Source: a virus. From it: a DNA stretch of 44,790 nucleotides. Position 1 is the stretch's first letter. The number at the start of each line of letters is the position of its first letter. The notes beneath the pieces are model-generated. The model saw nothing but the letters and a program-made list of their open reading frames with translations. It ran no database searches and was not told where the DNA came from. The translations under genes and the position numbers were made by a program. The stretch is from positions 1-44,790 of IMG/VR virus record IMGVR_UViG_3300012001_000018. The stretch is one strand, 5' to 3'. Below are positions 7,322 to 19,537 of the stretch, one piece after another.

Positions 7322-8059
7322 TCAGTCGCCGAGAATTTCGTCAGCGATCTCAGTCAGTTGGTTCTTGCTGTGGTACTCCACGACGTCCGACCCGTATGCC
7401 TTCGCATCGAATCCGTCGATCTCCTCCTTCGACAGAGGCTCAATGTCCCAGTCCGCCTCGACATCGCGCTCCTTGACTGGGGTGACCACGTAGACAGTCT
7501 TGGTTCCCTTTCCGGACTTGGAGACTGAGAAGTAGATGTCGTCCCGGTTTATCGGGCCGACCTTCTTGTCCTTGTTGAGGTTCTTCAAGGTGGTGGCCAC
7601 CCGGCTGCCTACCGTCCAGAGCACGTTTACCGGCTTGTCAGGCTCGGTGAAGTCAACGACGTTGAAGAGGATCTTGGCGCTGGGCGGATCCCCGATGTCC
7701 TCACACAGGGGGCACCCATCACCGAGGCAGATCCAGGACTTCTTTCCCTTGCGCTCGACCCAGTGCTGCTTGTAGACGGCAAAGGGCGCCTCGTCGAGGA
7801 AGTGGAGCAGAATTGCCTCGTCGGTAACTTCGAGTTCATCCGGGAAGTCGTCGCTCTTGGCCGCGTCTGCGGCGTCCCAGCCGCTAGCCACCTTGGGCTT
7901 TACCGGCTTGTCCTTGGGCGCAGCCGTCCGCCGACGGGCTCGTGGGGCGCTGTCTTCGGAGTCCTCAGGGGTGGGGGTACTAGCAACATCATCCACAGGC
8001 TCATACTTCTTCGCCGTAGCGGAGTCGGCGGAACGACGACGGACAAGGGCTCGTGCCAT
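7322..8059 (-). CDS. Phage single-stranded DNA-binding protein (T4 gp32-like zinc type)
   Basis: This 245-residue protein has a basic, low-complexity N-terminal 70 residues (RARRRTAAPKDKP), then a core with HFLDEAPFAVYKQHW and a Cys cluster C111, C116, C119 (CLGDGCPLCEDIG) followed by AKILFNVVDFT, a pattern of actinophage ssDNA-binding proteins with a zinc-containing OB-like core. The C-terminus is acidic (LTEIADEILGD), as expected for partner docking. It would coat ssDNA at the fork. It ends just upstream of the hairpin and the polymerase gene. Confidence 0.75.
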   Translation of the reverse strand: MARALVRRRSADSATAKKYEPVDDVASTPTPEDSEDSAPRARRRTAAPKDKPVKPKVASGWDAADAAKSDDFPDELEVTDEAILLHFLDEAPFAVYKQHWVERKGKKSWICLGDGCPLCEDIGDPPSAKILFNVVDFTEPDKPVNVLWTVGSRVATTLKNLNKDKKVGPINRDDIYFSVSKSGKGTKTVYVVTPVKERDVEADWDIEPLSKEEIDGFDAKAYGSDVVEYHSKNQLTEIADEILGD

Positions 8060-10156: not shown

Positions 10157-11809
10157 CTACGTACCAAGTGCTCCCAGCAGGTGCTCGGTCAGGGAGCCCA
10201 CCTCGTTGATGACCCGTCCCTTGTCATCGGCCCCCTCGTTGTCGAGGATTGCTGATCCGACCCGCCTCTTGTGGGCGATGAGTTCGTACTTGCGGGGCTC
10301 AGTGGTGCCTCGGGTGATCAGGTTGCGGACGTAGATGTTCTCGAAGGTGGAGGCTGCCCGACTATGCCTCGCGTTGATCTGGTCAACTTTTCCGGATGAC
10401 CATGCGAGGTCGTAGTTGTAGAGGTAGTTCGCCATGAATAGATCCGTGCCGAAGGCTCCAGCGTGGCTGCAGATGAAGAGCCTGCAGTTAGGGTCGTCTC
10501 GGAACTTGGCCACCGCACCAGCCTTGGCGGCAGCGTTCATGCCCCCGTGGTACTGCACCGACCCAGCCAGGGATCCCAAAGCCTCATCAATGGCATCCAG
10601 CGCGTGCCTAAAGAAACTGAAGATGATGATCTTGTTCTCAGGATCATCGAGCAGCACATCCTGGACATCCTCCTTCAGCACCGCCAACTTAGGGCTGTGT
10701 AGCAGGTCATCTAAGAGCCCGGACTGCCACACCTCATAGCAGTACTTGGACCCCTGCCAGTTGGCCCGTGCAACCCCCGCCTCCTGCTGCTCCAGGGACT
10801 CCTCATAGTCCATGCCGGAGGCAACTATGAGGTCCGGGTGGTCGAGAAGCATGTCCAGGGCCTGCATTCGGGCCATGATTCGCCCCTGCTGTGAGTTCTC
10901 ATTCTGCTGCTGGCCGCTGTAGTAGGCTGTCAGGTCGAACTCTGTAACCTGCCCGGGCTTCTGCAACTCGGTAAGGAGTTCTTTAGAGAGCGTGTTATAT
11001 ACGTTACGGCTCTTCTTGTCGAGGTCGACGTAGAGGTTGGACTCCTGTGTCTTGGGCAGGTACTTGGCCACCTCGGGGTCACGACGTGTCTTTCGTACCA
11101 TCACCTCGGCCAGTTTCGCGTGGAGCACCGGCAGATTCTTGTACCTCTGCACTCCCCCGTAACCATTCCTCACGATATAGGTGTTGTCGAAGAGGTCGAA
11201 TCTCCCAAGAACTTCCGGGTCAACCCACTGCATGATCGAGTACAACTCCTCAGGCTTCCCGTTCTCTACAGGAGTTCCAGTAAGGCCGAAGCGGTAGGGG
11301 GCACTTAGTCGCTTGATCTTGCGGGCTCTCTGCGCCTTGAAGGTCTTGATGGCTGTTATCTCGTCAAGAAATATGGCCTCTGGCTTAATGCGCCGGACGT
11401 TGTTCCAGTCGTTTACCACATTCTCATATCCGAGGATGATGTAGTCGGGGCGATTATCCTTGATGAATTCATACTGCGCCGCTCGTTTTGCTTTAGATCC
11501 ATCAATGACAATTGCATGCTCATCAATTGGAACTATAATTTCCTGCTTAATACCCTCTAGAGTTAGTTTCTTTACGCAGGTATCCACATCAACAGCCCGG
11601 GCAACCTGCTGAGCCCATTGCCATTTAAGCGAGGAGGGAACCACAAGAAAACATGTCTCTACTCCAGCGTTGGCAATTAGTTCCTCCATAATTGCCAGCG
11701 CTATTATACTCTTACCCAGCCCCATGCTGTAGGCAATCAGCAGGTTGCCTCTCGCTAGGGCGCTATCTACAGCGCCCTCCTGGAATGGGTAAAGATCTAC
11801 GCTTAACAT
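10157..11809 (-). CDS. SNF2/DEAD-type DNA helicase
   Basis: This 550-residue superfamily 2 ATPase has the Q-like start LYPFQ, Walker A SMGLGKS (28-34), Walker B LDEIT near 148, motif III LTGTPVENG near 175, and in the second RecA lobe IIIFSFF and QINARHSR (motif VI). The layout is SNF2-like. Phage versions remodel or unwind DNA during replication, recombination or repair. The gene starts one base after the primase stop, and promoter P2 follows its end. Confidence 0.88.
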   Translation of the reverse strand: MLSVDLYPFQEGAVDSALARGNLLIAYSMGLGKSIIALAIMEELIANAGVETCFLVVPSSLKWQWAQQVARAVDVDTCVKKLTLEGIKQEIIVPIDEHAIVIDGSKAKRAAQYEFIKDNRPDYIILGYENVVNDWNNVRRIKPEAIFLDEITAIKTFKAQRARKIKRLSAPYRFGLTGTPVENGKPEELYSIMQWVDPEVLGRFDLFDNTYIVRNGYGGVQRYKNLPVLHAKLAEVMVRKTRRDPEVAKYLPKTQESNLYVDLDKKSRNVYNTLSKELLTELQKPGQVTEFDLTAYYSGQQQNENSQQGRIMARMQALDMLLDHPDLIVASGMDYEESLEQQEAGVARANWQGSKYCYEVWQSGLLDDLLHSPKLAVLKEDVQDVLLDDPENKIIIFSFFRHALDAIDEALGSLAGSVQYHGGMNAAAKAGAVAKFRDDPNCRLFICSHAGAFGTDLFMANYLYNYDLAWSSGKVDQINARHSRAASTFENIYVRNLITRGTTEPRKYELIAHKRRVGSAILDNEGADDKGRVINEVGSLTEHLLGALGT

Positions 11810-11810
11810 G

Positions 11811-12794
11811 TCAGAATCGCACCAGCGTACTTGAAATAGCAGTGTCTACGCTGTGTAGAATCTGCTCATCCGTCATGTTACCGGGGTCTTTTATGCCCTC
11901 ATCAAAGTCTGCGTAGTTGAGGAACCTTAGGATCATGCTCTTGCCATAGGTGTCATTCAGCCAGCGAGAGTAGGTCGTACCATCCTTGTCGTTGTCAAGG
12001 CCAACAATGCACTCATCGGTAATCGCCTGTATGATCTTCATCTGGGCTTCAGACACGCCAGCACCAAAAGAGGACAGCCCTCCCTCTACACCGGCTGTGA
12101 ATATGCGTGGGACATCCAGAGGAGACTCAATAATGATCGCCGGGCCCTCCACGAACTGCTCCAAACCAAAGAGAGTCTTGGACTTCGTAACCTCCTTTGG
12201 GAAGTTGCGGAAGTACCGCTCGTTCTTTGCCTGCCAGCCCCAGAGTTTCCCGGTGTTAGGATCCCGGATGGGTGTGATCCAGTGTTCCTTGGCCGAGTCC
12301 CAGAGGATCCCGTAGTGCTGAACGGATGCCAGTGACAGACCCCGCTTGGCCAGGGCCTCGGCCGGGGGGTCAACGAAGAGTGCCAGTGAAGCCTCGTTGA
12401 TCTGCAGGGTGGTGTCTCGGGTCAGTAGCCTCAGGCCCTTGGACTCGTCGAGTGTGCGCTTTACCCTCTCGATCCCTCCCCGGGCGCGGATCCACCCGAC
12501 AGCCTCATCTCGGCCACACTTGAGCATGTACTCCACGAGGAGAACGAAGGGTCCTCGATACCCGCAACTAAAACAGTTGAAAACTGATTCGGACACATTG
12601 ACGCTGAAGGAGGGGTGCCCGTCTTCCTTGCCGGTTCGCTCTAGGTGGGCGGGGCACTTGGCCAGGGCCTCGTCCCCGGTGACCCGGAGCACCTCGACTC
12701 CCAGTTCCTCCAGAGCAGAGAGCACATCTCCAGGTATTGGGGTATCCTCCCAATCGTGAGTTTCCTTGCGCTTAGAAGGTCGTCTTCGAGTCAT
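11811..12794 (-). CDS. DnaG-type DNA primase
   Basis: This 327-residue protein has a CHC2 zinc finger (C47, H50, C74, C77) and a Toprim domain with the catalytic Glu in IIESPLD near 223 and the DND metal motif in GLDNDKDG near 265. ATG at 12794 with AGGTGA upstream is chosen; a longer frame from 12911 only reads through the helicase gene. It overlaps dnaB by 22 bases, which fits primase and helicase being made together. It would synthesise RNA primers at the phage fork. It is shorter than bacterial DnaG and lacks an obvious helicase-binding C-terminal domain. Confidence 0.9.
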   Translation of the reverse strand: MTRRRPSKRKETHDWEDTPIPGDVLSALEELGVEVLRVTGDEALAKCPAHLERTGKEDGHPSFSVNVSESVFNCFSCGYRGPFVLLVEYMLKCGRDEAVGWIRARGGIERVKRTLDESKGLRLLTRDTTLQINEASLALFVDPPAEALAKRGLSLASVQHYGILWDSAKEHWITPIRDPNTGKLWGWQAKNERYFRNFPKEVTKSKTLFGLEQFVEGPAIIIESPLDVPRIFTAGVEGGLSSFGAGVSEAQMKIIQAITDECIVGLDNDKDGTTYSRWLNDTYGKSMILRFLNYADFDEGIKDPGNMTDEQILHSVDTAISSTLVRF

Positions 12795-14037
12795 CCCAGT
12801 CACCTGTTCCCGCGTCCGCGAATGGGTCACCCTGAAGTTCCTCGAACACCCCCAATTCCCAGTTCCACTGGATGAACACCTCCATCGGTGGGCAGTTACG
12901 CGACAGCACAACCTTGAGTTTGTTGATCAGGCCGTCATCCGTAGGCTCAATGCCAATGACGGTGTCTGAGTCCTGAGCAAAACTACTAGAATATCCAATC
13001 GAATTAGAGGTGATCCCCTTCTTCTTATCCATTTTCCATTCCAGAACCTGTGAGGAAATGACAGTGGGGATCTCTTTGTTCTGTGCCAACTTCTTGAACC
13101 CACGGGTTAAGTTAGTCAGTGACTGCGAGGTGTTATGCTCCCCTGTTATCTCATCCATCATCAGGTAAATACCATCGACGAAAAGGGCCTCCGGCTTAAT
13201 CTTGTCGACCTTTGCCGCGATTCCGGACAGGGTGGAGGCCCCCATGGAGTCAGCCGAGAACCAGAAGGGCGGCATGCTCTCGATCTGGCGCATCATCTTC
13301 TCCAACTTGTCCCACTCGTCCTTCTTCAGACGACCAGTGCGAAGTCGGGTGTTTGAGATTCCTGCCTTGAACGCGTCGAAGCGCTCTGCCATCTGATCAT
13401 TGCTCATCTCGAAGGTGAACATCAGAACAGTAAACCCGTGAACCCAGGCAGCCATTGCCATGAGAAGCATAACGGTACTTTTGCCCGCCTTGGGCGGTCC
13501 TACGATGGTGACTAGGTGTTCCTTCTGCAGCCCCTGCGTAGCCCTGTCGATCGCGTGGAACCCTGTGGGAGCACCGAGCAGGAAGTCAGGGTTGTCCTGC
13601 AGTTCTCGGTACCGCTTCATGCGTTCCATGCCGGTCTCAGTGAGGTCGACGTCACGGCCTGTTGGGATATCTGTGGAAATCTGGTTGATGGCGTCCAGTA
13701 GCACCCCCACGGCGGTGTCTGGGTCGCGGGCCTCATAGGCCTCTACTGCACCCGACAGACCCCCCTCCAGCAGCGACAGAGAATGCTTCCTCTGGATCTC
13801 CTCGATGAGGAACGAGAGCGGCTCTGCTGCCTTGACGAACTTGTACTCGGGGAAGTCCATCTTCAAGACGGAGACTGTCGGTACCGCCCCGTGCCGAGCG
13901 TTGAACTCGACGATGGTGTCAAATACGCTGCGGTCCTTAGGGTCCAGGAAGAACTTGCTGGTGATACCGGCTTCTGCTACTAGCCCTAGATCCTTGTCAG
14001 CAAGGATGCGTGAGATCAAAAGACGTTCAGCGTCCAT
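12772..14037 (-). CDS. dnaB: Replicative DNA helicase (DnaB-like)
   Basis: This 421-residue protein has an N-terminal helical domain (about 1-110), a linker, and a RecA-like ATPase with Walker A GPPKAGKST (180-188), the FTFEMS segment after it, Walker B around LFVDGIYLMMD, and a C-terminal QSLTNLTRGFKKLAQ/ISSQVLEW pattern typical of DnaB motif 3. It would form the hexameric fork helicase, loaded by the DnaC-like product encoded upstream. The stop overlaps the primase gene. The acidic C-terminal tail (GDWDDSKTTF) may dock partners. Confidence 0.92.
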   Translation of the reverse strand: MDAERLLISRILADKDLGLVAEAGITSKFFLDPKDRSVFDTIVEFNARHGAVPTVSVLKMDFPEYKFVKAAEPLSFLIEEIQRKHSLSLLEGGLSGAVEAYEARDPDTAVGVLLDAINQISTDIPTGRDVDLTETGMERMKRYRELQDNPDFLLGAPTGFHAIDRATQGLQKEHLVTIVGPPKAGKSTVMLLMAMAAWVHGFTVLMFTFEMSNDQMAERFDAFKAGISNTRLRTGRLKKDEWDKLEKMMRQIESMPPFWFSADSMGASTLSGIAAKVDKIKPEALFVDGIYLMMDEITGEHNTSQSLTNLTRGFKKLAQNKEIPTVISSQVLEWKMDKKKGITSNSIGYSSSFAQDSDTVIGIEPTDDGLINKLKVVLSRNCPPMEVFIQWNWELGVFEELQGDPFADAGTGDWDDSKTTF

Positions 14038-14497
14038 GTCGTCCGAGGGCTCCCATCAGGATTGGGTTACTTGGGTCTACCGCGTAACCCTTGGAGCCAA
14101 AGGTGAAGTCTGGATGGGTGGCAGCGGGATAGAATACCCCAGCCACATCGAGCCGGTAGTTTAAGGATCGAGCCAGCAGCAACCTATCGGTGTAGGTGAC
14201 ATGCCCTATCGGAAGTCCCTGCTCATCGATAAGGTCCCTAAGGGGGTCCACCAGTTTCGCGCCAAGGAAGGTCACCACATCAACGGCGTAGTTAAACCTT
14301 CCGTATGTGACATCCCAGATAACCCGCTGCAGTTGCTCGTTCAATTCAAATGTCCTGATGGCAGCCCCATACCGGTGGAGTTTCATCGCGGCCGAGTACT
14401 TCGCCCTTGCCCTGGCATCTGCGTGGATTCCCAGGAGGCCTTCGAACACCACGAGCAGCCGGGGCTCAACCTGACTACTTATGTCACCGCCGCGCAC
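14027..14497 (-). CDS. Conserved-type phage protein of unknown function
   Basis: This 156-residue protein has the GTG at 14497 as its best start (AAGAG six bases upstream); a TTG at 14503 is an alternative. It begins with a hydrophobic strand (PRLLVVFEGLLGIHAD), has a middle part DVTYGRFNYAVDVVTFLGAKL, and ends FGSKGYAVDPSNPILMG. The first strand and the later segments faintly recall HAD-like or deoxynucleotidase folds, but the expected DxD is absent. It sits between the helicase loader and dnaB genes and overlaps both, so a replisome link is likely. Confidence 0.75.
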   Translation of the reverse strand: MRGGDISSQVEPRLLVVFEGLLGIHADARARAKYSAAMKLHRYGAAIRTFELNEQLQRVIWDVTYGRFNYAVDVVTFLGAKLVDPLRDLIDEQGLPIGHVTYTDRLLLARSLNYRLDVAGVFYPAATHPDFTFGSKGYAVDPSNPILMGALGRHGR

Positions 14498-15218
14498 GGT
14501 CAACTCTTTTCGGTCGCTCGGATCTATCGGTCATCTTCCATCCGGCCGAACCCACACGGCGATCCTCTGTGGTCATCGTGATGAGCCCGAAAGCCTCTTG
14601 CACAAAGGAGCCCATGGACTCGTTGTACACCGCGTTCCAGTCACCAAAGCCCACGTTGGTGGTCATCAAGGTTGGGAGGGCATCGCGGTGTCGCTGGCGC
14701 AGTAGAAGATCCAACTCTTTGGAAGCGAACCCACTCGCACCGTCATGCTCCTTTCCAACGTCATCGAGCAGCAGAACCGGAACACTACGCACTCCGTCGA
14801 TGACCTGCTGAATCTCACTCCAGCGGTCCTCATAGCCTTTCTTGTTCTGGAGGGACCACTGCTCTTTGCGCATTGAGATGTAGTCGGCATAGGCGACAAA
14901 CAGCACTGGAGTCTCCCAGTTGTCACGTAGTTCTGGATAGGTGTAGTAGACCTCCAGCAGTGTCTTGGTTGCCTCCGTGGTCTTCCCGGTACCTGCTGCC
15001 CCAACCCAGGCCAGACCTTGCCCAATCCCCACCATCGGTGGGTAGTCAGCGAGTTCCCGGTTCTCGCTCACAAGGTGGTCGGACAGATGCTTCACGAAGT
15101 GGAGGGCAGCAGGAGATTCATTATCACTCTGGCCTAGGCGGAGCGTCTGCAGGCGCTTTGGAATCCTGCACTCTCCCAGGCGGATCCGATGTACCCGAGG
15201 GTCTATGCTGACGGACAT
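14484..15218 (-). CDS. DnaC/IstB-like AAA+ helicase loader
   Basis: This 244-residue protein, with ATG at 15218, is AAA+: Walker A GAAGTGKT (73-80), Walker B VLLLDDVGKE (148-157) and a sensor-1 region PTLMTTN. The layout matches DnaC, phage P-type loaders and IstB. It should open and load the DnaB ring at the origin; no transposase gene is near, which excludes an IS21 partner. A TTG eight codons earlier is possible. The N-terminus is short compared with DnaC. It overlaps the following unknown gene by 14 bases. Confidence 0.85.
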   Translation of the reverse strand: MSVSIDPRVHRIRLGECRIPKRLQTLRLGQSDNESPAALHFVKHLSDHLVSENRELADYPPMVGIGQGLAWVGAAGTGKTTEATKTLLEVYYTYPELRDNWETPVLFVAYADYISMRKEQWSLQNKKGYEDRWSEIQQVIDGVRSVPVLLLDDVGKEHDGASGFASKELDLLLRQRHRDALPTLMTTNVGFGDWNAVYNESMGSFVQEAFGLITMTTEDRRVGSAGWKMTDRSERPKRVDRARR

Positions 15219-15439
15219 CCGACCACCCGTCGTGAGCGCCAATAGTGCTCACATCCGCCGCATTCCATCTCAACTCGCACCGGGTCACCGACCTCGAATA
15301 AGAACGGGCCAGCGGGGAGGATCACGCCGCCGTTCACCTCGTGTTGAGCGAAGTCCGTCCAGCCCGACCCCTCGTGCGTCTCAAGGATCGACAGGTAGGT
15401 GCTCCCGCACTTAGGGCACTTGGCATAGGGTATATTCAT
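15203..15439 (-). CDS. Small zinc-ribbon protein
   Basis: This 78-residue protein has two CxxC knuckles (C8/C11 in KCPKCGS and C60/C63 in ECGGCEHYW) flanking a beta-rich middle (GGVILPAGPFLFEVGDPVRVEM). This is a complete zinc ribbon of the type found in transcription and replication accessory proteins. The ATG at 15439 overlaps the phosphatase stop (ATGA), and the end overlaps the loader gene. Confidence 0.8.
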   Translation of the reverse strand: MNIPYAKCPKCGSTYLSILETHEGSGWTDFAQHEVNGGVILPAGPFLFEVGDPVRVEMECGGCEHYWRSRRVVGCPSA

Positions 15440-15978
15440 GCTGCTGCCGGAGGAGTCTGCTCCAGCAGGTACTCCTCGAAGGCCTTGTTGCAGAGGACAA
15501 GAGCATGTCGCTTCTCGCGGAGAAGCCTGATGGCGTCCTCTGGTCCTAGGCCACCCTTGATCAGGACCAATGCGGAGATGAGGCCAGATCGATTCAAGCC
15601 AGCCTGACAGTGAATTAGGGTCTTACCCTGCTGCACACACTGGAGCGCATAGCGTACGACGCTTCCCAGTGTGTGCTCTTCGGGAATCCCCGCACCATCG
15701 TAGAGCCGGAACTCAACCCGGTCGGTGGTCTCGGGGTTCAGGGTGTATTTCTCCCACGGGTATAGCGAGACCACATGCTTGAAGTCGTTATCCAGCCGGA
15801 CACCGTCGATGCAGCCACCCATCCAGAGGTTGCCCACGATGTGGGAGATCAGGGGGACGTCGAAGTGTGAACTCTCGGGGTCACCCCGGTCGAAGACAGC
15901 GGCGGCGTAGCCCTCGATGTGGTGGGTCTGAAGGTCTGCGGAAGGGGGTACTCTGTCGCAGTCGCGGTAGGCGCTCAT
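15436..15978 (-). CDS. Dual-specificity / tyrosine phosphatase-like protein
   Basis: This 180-residue protein carries the complete PTP loop HCQAGLNRSG, with Cys124 and Arg130, preceded by the DSP start strand GNLWMGG (49-55) and a candidate general acid in LYDGAGIPE (Asp94). All catalytic residues are present, so an active cysteine phosphatase is expected. Substrates could be host phosphoproteins or nucleotides. It is second in the replication operon after the initiator-like gene, an unusual place for such an enzyme. TAGGAGAACCGT precedes the ATG. Confidence 0.88.
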   Translation of the reverse strand: MSAYRDCDRVPPSADLQTHHIEGYAAAVFDRGDPESSHFDVPLISHIVGNLWMGGCIDGVRLDNDFKHVVSLYPWEKYTLNPETTDRVEFRLYDGAGIPEEHTLGSVVRYALQCVQQGKTLIHCQAGLNRSGLISALVLIKGGLGPEDAIRLLREKRHALVLCNKAFEEYLLEQTPPAAA

Positions 15979-16027: not shown

Positions 16028-17128
16028 TCAAGTCCAGTACCCGGGGTTGTGGCGGTTGGCCTCAACCTCTTCAGCCTTGAACCGGCGCTCCAACTGGGCA
16101 TGGATCTTGTCCTGATTCGCCAGGAAGTCGCGCCATGCGTCGGCGGAGAGGTTTCTCCGATAAGATCCATGCCAAAATTCGTCGATCATGTCCCGGATGT
16201 GTCCGTCGCTGACACCATCCCTTCGCCAAGCCGCGAAGTTCTTTGCCATGGCTGCGGCGTTGAACCTCCCTGCAGGCTCCTCAGGGCCCGCGTCAGTCGC
16301 CTCCAGGGCGAAGTAGTCGGCTAGGGCTGCAGCAGGCCCTACAGGCCGCTTAGCACGCTGGGTGAGTATCCTCTGGCGTCTTGCATTCGCCCGTCCCAGA
16401 TCTGTCGTTGGCAGCATCCCAGCGCCCTCGCAGGCAATCGTGTCGACGGGAGCCTCGCCAATCAGGTCGACCTCGAAGGGGTCCGTGGCCTCCGCCGCAG
16501 CCTTGGCCGCTGCTGCTCGGCGGGCCCTCTTGCTTTCCCGCTTGGGCTTTCCATCAGGGACAGCATCCCAGCCTCCGGATATCGCACGAGCCGGAGGCGC
16601 GGGCGGGAGATACGAAGTATCTCTGCTTACAGACTCACAACTAGAACTAGTAGTTGTACAACTAAGGAAGCCTGGAAATCCGTCTTCGGTAGTAGTTGAT
16701 ATATCCGGCGTGTCGCAGTGCTTTTCCCGGCGTGTCGAGGGGGTAGTTACTAGGTCACTTACCGAAGACGGGTTTCCAGGCGATATAGAACCTACCGAAG
16801 ACGGGTTTTCAGGGCTCGGTAATGGGACGTCACTGACGACCGTTTCCCAGGCCCACAAGGAGCGCCCTCGGTCATCCTGATAGGGGTAGCGGGTCTGCCG
16901 GACATAGGAGAACTCCCGCAGTTCAGCCAGGGCTGTGCGGAGGGCGTCCCGCCCCTCAGTACCGTGGCTGGACAGGTCGGCTGTGGAGATGAGTGTCTCA
17001 TTGTCATAGGTCAGCAGGAGGGCCAGAACTCCGCGCGCGCGGAAGGACAGGCGAGCATCCTGCAGCGTCGCTATAGGAATCACCACACTGGTCGACGGAG
17101 CGCGCCGGATCAAGATCACTTCGTTCAT
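16028..17128 (-). CDS. Replication initiator-like winged-helix protein
   Basis: This 366-residue protein starts with ATG at 17128 (GGAAG nine bases upstream; an upstream TTG is less likely). Residues about 10-65 form a winged helix (FRARGVLALLLTYDN, TEGRDALRTALAELREF). A Ser/Thr/Pro-rich linker (about 95-175) is encoded by the repeat cluster, followed by a basic tract (KPKRESKRARRAAAAK) and a helical C-terminal domain with FNAAAMAKNFAAWRRDG and FLANQDKIHAQLERRF. The N-HTH/linker/C-domain order and the first place in an operon with loader, helicase and primase fit an origin-binding initiator of the lambda O type. This is inference; no catalytic motif is present. Confidence 0.7.
   Translation of the reverse strand: MNEVILIRRAPSTSVVIPIATLQDARLSFRARGVLALLLTYDNETLISTADLSSHGTEGRDALRTALAELREFSYVRQTRYPYQDDRGRSLWAWETVVSDVPLPSPENPSSVGSISPGNPSSVSDLVTTPSTRREKHCDTPDISTTTEDGFPGFLSCTTTSSSCESVSRDTSYLPPAPPARAISGGWDAVPDGKPKRESKRARRAAAAKAAAEATDPFEVDLIGEAPVDTIACEGAGMLPTTDLGRANARRQRILTQRAKRPVGPAAALADYFALEATDAGPEEPAGRFNAAAMAKNFAAWRRDGVSDGHIRDMIDEFWHGSYRRNLSADAWRDFLANQDKIHAQLERRFKAEEVEANRHNPGYWT
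16609..16813. repeat. Iteron-like 21-bp repeats and palindromes inside the initiator gene (candidate origin)
   Basis: Two direct copies of a 21-bp unit (16760-16780 and 16793-16813; TACCGAAGACGGGTTTCCAG plus G, one mismatch between them) and one inverted copy (16671-16691, one mismatch) lie within 145 bases. The left end has a perfect 14-bp palindrome, TAGTTGTACAACTA (16651-16664), further copies of its half-site at 16637-16643, and the inverted repeat GATAC-GAA-GTATC (16609-16621). The stretch 16609-16705 is clearly richer in A/T than its surroundings. It encodes the linker of the initiator-like protein, a place where sequence is free to carry a DNA function. Confidence 0.65.
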
Positions 17129-17304
17129 GCCGTGCAACTTCCTACTCGTAAGACACTTCAGGTCACTCTCTCCGTAGCCTCAGGCGAGGACCGGGGGTGG
17201 TGTACTGAATAGCCTATCGCAAACCGGTTCGTGTACGCTCATTTAGAGAAAGACCTTGTCGGCACACTTCAAGGCTGTGGTGGCCTACTTCTCCCGACAA
17301 GAAG
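17129..17304. other. Non-coding leader before the replication operon
   Basis: No gene fits here. It contains an 8-bp inverted repeat (CTTGTCGG 17255-17262 with CCGACAAG 17294-17301) with a 31-base interior, and AACCGGTT at 17223-17230, the same palindrome seen in promoter P2. A promoter for the initiator gene must lie here or upstream, but I could not fix clear -35 and -10 boxes; TAGGCT at 17217-17212 is the best -10 candidate. Confidence 0.4.
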
Positions 17305-17370
17305 GAAGAAGCCCCTGACATAGAGGCGGTAGAGGTTCTCGTCCCTCCCGCTGTTGTCAGGGGCTTCTTC
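17305..17370 (-). terminator. Long hairpin, probable terminator after the AT-hook gene
   Basis: A perfect 16-bp stem (17305-17320 with 17355-17370) carries a second inner stem (17326-17329 with 17348-17351 and 17332-17335 with 17344-17347) and an 8-base loop. It starts 12 bases after the stop of the gene ending at 17382. Leftward it is followed by CTTCTTGTC, only partly U-rich. It could terminate the AT-hook transcript or form part of a stable small RNA. Confidence 0.7.
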
Positions 17371-18831: not shown

Positions 18832-18860
18832 ACCGTATCAATAACTCCGGTTCCGGTCAA
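18832..18860 (-). promoter_or_regulatory. Promoter P3 upstream of the AT-hook gene
   Basis: On the minus strand: -35 TTGACC (18860-18855), a 17-base spacer starting GGAACCGG and ending GA, and -10 TACGGT (18837-18832). This is the best match to a housekeeping sigma-70 promoter among the three shared sites. It overlaps the last codons of the HNH gene and lies 53 bases before the TTG start at 18779. Confidence 0.7.
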
Positions 18861-19537
18861 GCGGCTAGGATGCGTGGTGGTTGCAGGTAGTCAGTCTTCC
18901 CGCCCTTGCGAAGATTACATGCCGCGCGGCTTGGCCGGATATTCTCGGTGGAGTGTGGGCCACCATTGACGAGGGCAATCACATGCTCCATATGGAGATC
19001 GGCTTTGGTCAGAATCTCTAGGCCGCAGATGTGGCAGACCATGCCGAACTCTTCCAAAATCGCGGCGTAGTCAGGAAGCGGGAGACCAATTGAGTTCCCC
19101 AGTTTCCTTGCCCGCCGGAGGCCGCAGGCCGCGTTGACCTTCTCAGGGTTATCCTTGGCATAAGCAACCTTGTAGGCAGTGATCTCCTCGCGGTGAGAGG
19201 CCTGGTAGGCAGCCTGGTAGGCCGCGCGCTCCTCACGGTGCACCACGTAGTAGGCTGCCCTCTTAGCCAAGATCTCATCGCGGTGAGTGGCACGGTAAGC
19301 AGCCATAGAGGCTGCGTGTTCCTCGCGGTGAGCCTCGTAGTAAGCAGCCGACTGAGCCGCCTCCTCTTCGGGATGGTCGGCGCGCCATGCTTGGCTTCGG
19401 GCAATGGTCTCCTCGCGGTGCTCCTGATAGTGGGCAGCGTCATAGGCAGCCAACTCCTCGCGGTGAGCGGCTCGGTAGGAAGCATTAGAGGCAGCCACCT
19501 TCTCGCGGTTCGCGGACCGGTAAGCAGCAGTAGACAT
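18857..19537 (-). CDS. HNH endonuclease with nine N-terminal 15-residue repeats
   Basis: This 226-residue protein ends in an HNH module: CHICGLEI, LHMEHVIALVNGG, then STENIRPSRAACNLRKG, giving the Cys pair, the HxxH-like catalytic segment and the Asn/Cys end. Residues 6-139 are nine tandem units of about 15 residues, consensus YxAxHREExAAxxAA, that should form a long charged helix. It is probably a homing-type or host/phage DNA nicking enzyme, with the repeat arm serving to bind DNA or act as a spacer. The ATG at 19537 is preceded by AAAGGACAC. It lies between the lysis candidates and the AT-hook gene, a typical free-standing HNH position. Confidence 0.88.
   Translation of the reverse strand: MSTAAYRSANREKVAASNASYRAAHREELAAYDAAHYQEHREETIARSQAWRADHPEEEAAQSAAYYEAHREEHAASMAAYRATHRDEILAKRAAYYVVHREERAAYQAAYQASHREEITAYKVAYAKDNPEKVNAACGLRRARKLGNSIGLPLPDYAAILEEFGMVCHICGLEILTKADLHMEHVIALVNGGPHSTENIRPSRAACNLRKGGKTDYLQPPRILAA
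19121..19522 (-). repeat. Tandem 45-bp coding repeats (nine units)
   Basis: The units encode the 15-residue repeats of the HNH protein and show as recurring CTCCTCGCGGTG-like words on the plus strand. They keep frame throughout and are diverged, so they are an old coding expansion, not a recent slippage array. Confidence 0.85.

Follow-up and report, generated by a model that had tools for sequence, protein, structure and literature searches.

A putative phage replication origin inside its own initiator gene, built on a DNA word that recurs in related initiators

The initiator gene and its neighbours

The window analysed here is the whole 44,790-base virus record IMGVR_UViG_3300012001_000018, which matches to tail sheath and baseplate proteins identify as that of a contractile-tailed bacterial virus. 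Its initiator gene lies on the minus strand at 16028-17137 and encodes a winged-helix N-terminus, a disordered Ser/Thr/Pro linker and a helical C-terminus, with matches to PHROG replication-initiation families at E-values of 1e-6 to 1e-5. As a start, the ATG at 17128 (366 aa) is better than the TTG at 17137 (369 aa), a choice on which both the AGGAAG upstream of that ATG and the N-termini of relatives bear. The protein has no Pfam family at E <= 0.01, and its winged helix finds no match in the PDB by sequence; compared by fold, the winged helix is closest in the PDB to two replication proteins, a Geobacillus primosomal DnaB protein and RctB (domain 1), an initiator of Vibrio, at weak E-values of about 0.01. 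An earlier sequence-only reading of this DNA had placed the repeats described below in a low-complexity linker between a winged helix and a helical C-terminal domain, and the AlphaFold model agrees, with a pLDDT of 84.8 for the winged helix and about 31 for residues 105-198, the linker.

Downstream of the initiator, in the same operon and on the same strand, are genes for a DnaC-like helicase loader (14484-15242; phrog_50, E = 1.7e-18), a DnaB-like replicative helicase (12772-14037; Pfam DnaB_C, E = 1.2e-31; phrog_19, E = 7e-58) and a DNA primase with a CHC2 zinc ribbon and a Toprim domain (11811-12911), as well as an SNF2-type helicase (10157-11809) that is conserved in the relative L219. The order loader, helicase, primase and SNF2 helicase recurs in one relative. 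Of the replication functions that had been assigned to this operon, loader, helicase and primase are thus borne out, whereas a single-stranded DNA-binding protein is matched only weakly (7322-8059; phrog_14578, E = 1.4e-4). A dual-specificity phosphatase gene on the minus strand (15436-15978; DSPc, E = 9e-9; phrog_10650, E = 2e-38) separates the initiator from the loader; in L219 no gene stands between the two. Just past the gene upstream of the initiator is a long inverted repeat, AAGAAGCCCCTGACA...TGTCAGGGGCTTCTT (17305-17370), which probably serves as an inter-operon terminator. An HNH/endonuclease VII-like gene at 18857-19537 contains tandem repeats of 90 and 45 bp (19181-19349 and 19444-19534). 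No Rfam match or tRNA was found, and a DNA search of phage records with the 5-kb region gave no match.

Repeats, presumed melting tract and hairpins

Three 21-bp repeats, which we call iterons, occupy codons about 108-156 of the 366/369-aa gene, roughly 320-470 nt inside it. Iteron 1 (16793-16813, minus strand) is CCTGAAAACCCGTCTTCGGTA, read as PENPSSV; iteron 2 (16760-16780, minus strand), 33 bp from it, is CCTGGAAACCCGTCTTCGGTA, read as PGNPSSV; and iteron 3 (16671-16691, plus strand) is CCTGGAAATCCGTCTTCGGTA, where the coding strand reads TEDGFPG. The two direct copies and one inverted copy that had been noticed by eye are therefore real, with one to two mismatches between copies. Since the direct copies read PENPSSV and PGNPSSV and the inverted one TEDGFPG, a protein repeat cannot explain the set. 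No further 21-bp copy exists in the whole record at up to three mismatches, and across the 44.8 kb these iterons alone form inverted 21-mer pairs that lie no more than 300 nt apart and differ at two positions or fewer. A pattern search with the 21-mer also returned three viral contigs (L005-L007), which are unrelated and match by chance. Between the iterons there is a second direct repeat, CCGGCGTGTCG, at 16705-16715 and 16727-16737, its copies 22 bp (two helical turns) apart; it was not seen in the relatives.

An A/T-rich, presumed unwinding region spans 16606-16706, between iteron 3 and hairpin 1 (see below) and just beyond iteron 3. It carries repeated YAACTA/TAGTTR half-sites, including a perfect 14-bp palindrome at 16651-16664 and an inverted repeat at 16637-16657, and it shares GGATATATCAACT with the relatives L040 and L041. 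The repeat region had been described as A/T-richer than its flanks, and its G+C indeed falls to 0.50, compared with 0.61-0.69 alongside, while by A/T content it ranks only sixth among the 60-nt stretches of the window. By nearest-neighbour energy 16606-16705 is within the top 0.03% of least stable 100-bp stretches of the record, and its counterpart in two relatives is less stable than any other 100 bp in the 35.8 kb and 39.0 kb surrounding the gene, so that on duplex stability an easily melted region adjoins the repeats. The palindrome, which had been counted among the signs of an origin, does exist; since the window holds seven such palindromes where 2.8 are expected, it is not significant on its own.

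The two smaller inverted repeats of the sequence-only reading correspond to that at 16637-16657 (stem 7, loop 7) and hairpin 1 at 16607-16623 (stem 7, loop 3), which on the coding strand is GAGATAC-TTC-GTATCTC and in relatives, at the same codons, GAGAAGAC-TAC-GTCTTCTC. Hairpin 2 (16571-16598; GCCTCCGG-12 nt-CCGGAGGC) falls outside the interval first proposed, 16609-16813. In the relatives CCGCGCCG-NN-CGGCGCGG adjoins hairpin 1; within the codon-aligned clade the loop of hairpin 2 varies and three relatives carry one mismatch. The order is thus the least stable stretch, immediately followed by hairpin 1 and then by hairpin 2. In the linker of the relative L034, at about 440-455 of the gene, the A/T-rich tract contains a run of TAG triplets, CTACTAGTAGTAGTAG, resembling DnaA-trios, which may be simply serine codons.

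The cumulative GC skew, suggested as a check on an origin at this place, has its minimum at 18.4 kb, within about 2 kb of the site, in a window record that is incomplete, and the range of the skew has P = 0.03 (block permutation). In two relatives the skew, once detrended, reaches its minimum no more than 2 kb from the site. The skew speaks for an origin here, though weakly.

Conservation of the DNA word in relatives

A first search for relatives of the initiator returned only a C-terminal fragment, while an alignment-based search yielded eleven full-length relatives (L034-L044), eight of them distinct, with 38-40% identity over the alignment. At the start of the linker the relatives carry a sense CCTGAAAACCCG that is codon-aligned with iteron 1 in seven of the eight, one of these seven (L042) having diverged to CCTGAGAAACCG; in L043 the first site is flipped in orientation. 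In mid-linker, where the window holds the sense copy that is iteron 2, they have an antisense ACGGATTCCCAG, and a further antisense copy, TCCGAAGACGGGTTTTCAGG, is codon-aligned with iteron 3. One and the same word is thus read in three strand and frame settings, as PENP, TDSQ and EDGFSG. In the records of six relatives (about 256 kb) it occurs at the initiator locus only.

From just past the middle site through hairpin 1 the eight relatives show an identity at synonymous codons of 0.90-0.97; the overall value is 0.75, and the blocks that directly follow the high stretch have 0.55-0.70. The sequence-only reading had pointed out that an origin here would be doubtful if relatives preserved the protein sequence without the DNA repeats; we found the opposite, the DNA word being near-identical at a protein identity of about 38%. 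It had also asked whether the word persists at synonymous sites while the linker varies, and it does, in varied frames and orientations. The repeated sites inside the initiator gene are under selection at the DNA level.

In a wider sample of 80 non-redundant genes that share the winged helix, the 8- and 10-base words with the strongest enrichment in linkers are for the most part fragments of this single word, and outside the linkers the genes have few or none of them. For its core, TGRAAAHCCG, we counted 48 linker occurrences and none in the parts of the genes that encode the winged helix or the C-terminus, whereas synonymous shuffles give a mean of 4.4 and a maximum of 9; without the window's clade 32 occurrences remain, against 4.0 in shuffles (maximum 11). 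Because the members are related, such counts are not fully independent. Hairpins of at least seven pairs are also enriched in the family linkers (25 versus 6.0 and 39 versus 13.8) and not in the winged-helix part (10 versus 10.7). The word is common rather than universal, as the exact core is present in only 29 of the 80 members and the rest have variants or none. The core is present, among others, in the Arthrobacter phages Kitkat and Wheelbite and in contigs whose titles name Synechococcus, Rhodanobacter and Rhodococcus, and looser variants are visible by eye in the Staphylococcus phages 80alpha and CNPH82 and the Lactobacillus phage LL-H.

These observations lead us to favour, with some reserve, the view that a winged-helix initiator family of phages and prophages from several bacterial phyla shares a linker word close to CCTGRAAAYCCGTCnnCGG, and that the peptide sequence of the linker is for the most part incidental to a DNA origin, deeply conserved, that consists of iterons, unwinding tract and hairpins. 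If so, sequence alone could suffice to call origins in hundreds of uncultured phages. In searches of open papers, covering part of the literature, the titles and abstracts that came up contain no report of such a shared family-wide word. It is this conserved word that is new, the arrangement itself being already known from 80alpha, SPP1 and lambda.

A probable origin, its alternatives and known systems

We read 16571-16813 as a phage replication origin within its own initiator gene, with a probability of roughly 0.88. In the most likely mechanism, the gene product would first bind the three 21-bp sites through its winged-helix N-terminus and, once bound, melt the A/T-rich YAACTA tract next to iteron 3; the C-terminal region of the initiator would then recruit the DnaC-like loader, and the loader would place the phage DnaB helicase, leading to theta replication. 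The hairpins belong to the conserved element; once the strand is open, they might form structures on it that help loading or priming. The origin role proposed by the sequence-only reading gains support from the retention of the DNA word in relatives and from the 80alpha homologue, which carries an origin; that replication initiates at this very site is what we infer from them.

One may also consider other explanations for the cluster. The repeats could mainly be sites, acting as operator or roadblock, through which the initiator regulates its own operon while replication starts elsewhere; iteron-binding initiators of plasmids often autoregulate, and winged-helix proteins can be repressors. We regard this as unlikely, since the sites are some 320-470 nt into the gene rather than at a promoter, they adjoin the least stable DNA and conserved hairpins, and the 80alpha homologue carries the origin. 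Attachment, partition and packaging sites, too, can show inverted and direct repeats in A/T-rich DNA, and the cluster might be a cis site of that sort, unrelated to initiation. Against this, it is tied to one initiator family across many phages, and among the window proteins scanned, which represent part of the open reading frames, no partition or integrase gene was recognised; such a site appears quite improbable. Less probable still, and only barely credible, is selection on repeated linker peptides rather than on DNA: ENP- and GNP-like peptides do recur in family linkers, but the word stands in three strand and frame settings and flips orientation, its main settings all exceed the synonymous shuffles, and synonymous sites are conserved.

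The origin reading suggests a conserved pairing of initiator and site across distant phages. It would offer a testable way to locate origins in uncultured actinophage-like genomes by sequence, and the locus is a clear case of one DNA stretch that is strongly selected as presumed protein-binding sites while coding for protein.

The closest comparison is 80alpha, where the origin is annotated inside the homologous gene, ORF20. ORF20-21 suffice for autonomous replication of a plasmid; ORF20 is an essential gene whose loss, in contrast to that of ORF21, cannot be complemented from outside (PMC5499656). The gene is the best-supported seat of the 80alpha origin, and for this homologue the experiments show in part what an origin of this kind would require, namely a gene product that binds the repeats and a segment that replicates in cis (PMC5499656). 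Homology covers the winged-helix N-terminus (tblastn, E = 2e-4), with BLAST aligning residues 3-105 only; the C-terminus is not alignable, its helices and YW tail being alike by eye. At the same place in the gene 80alpha has GGAAAA/CCG repeats followed by an A/T-rich tract and a short hairpin, and a DnaC-like loader comes next. In contrast to the window, its word has extra A spacing, and it uses the host helicase, whereas the window phage encodes a helicase and a primase.

A further comparison is with actinophage initiators, the RepA-like proteins of the mycobacteriophages Miko and Jeeves, for which the origin is believed to be located within or next to the gene (PMC7157519); these differ in that the region searched held no repeated motifs (PMC7157519), the initiator is another one, and it occurs with parABS. 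In SPP1, oriL lies inside gene 38 (G38P) and comprises repeats and an A/T-rich region, with a phage loader and a DnaB helicase (PMC6316719). By description, SPP1 thus resembles the window in having an origin of this composition in the initiator gene, and differs in its second origin, oriR, the window record showing no second repeat cluster.

The sequence-only reading had compared the locus with lambda, and as an analogy this stands. Iterons and an A/T-rich region lie inside the lambda O initiator gene, as described for ori-lambda (PMC6022878). By sequence the comparison fails: the window initiator lacks any Pfam match (E <= 0.01) and is not a member of the lambda O family, and lambda O has been called unrelated to 80alpha ORF20 (PMC5499656). 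The protein belongs instead with the 80alpha-type winged-helix initiators.
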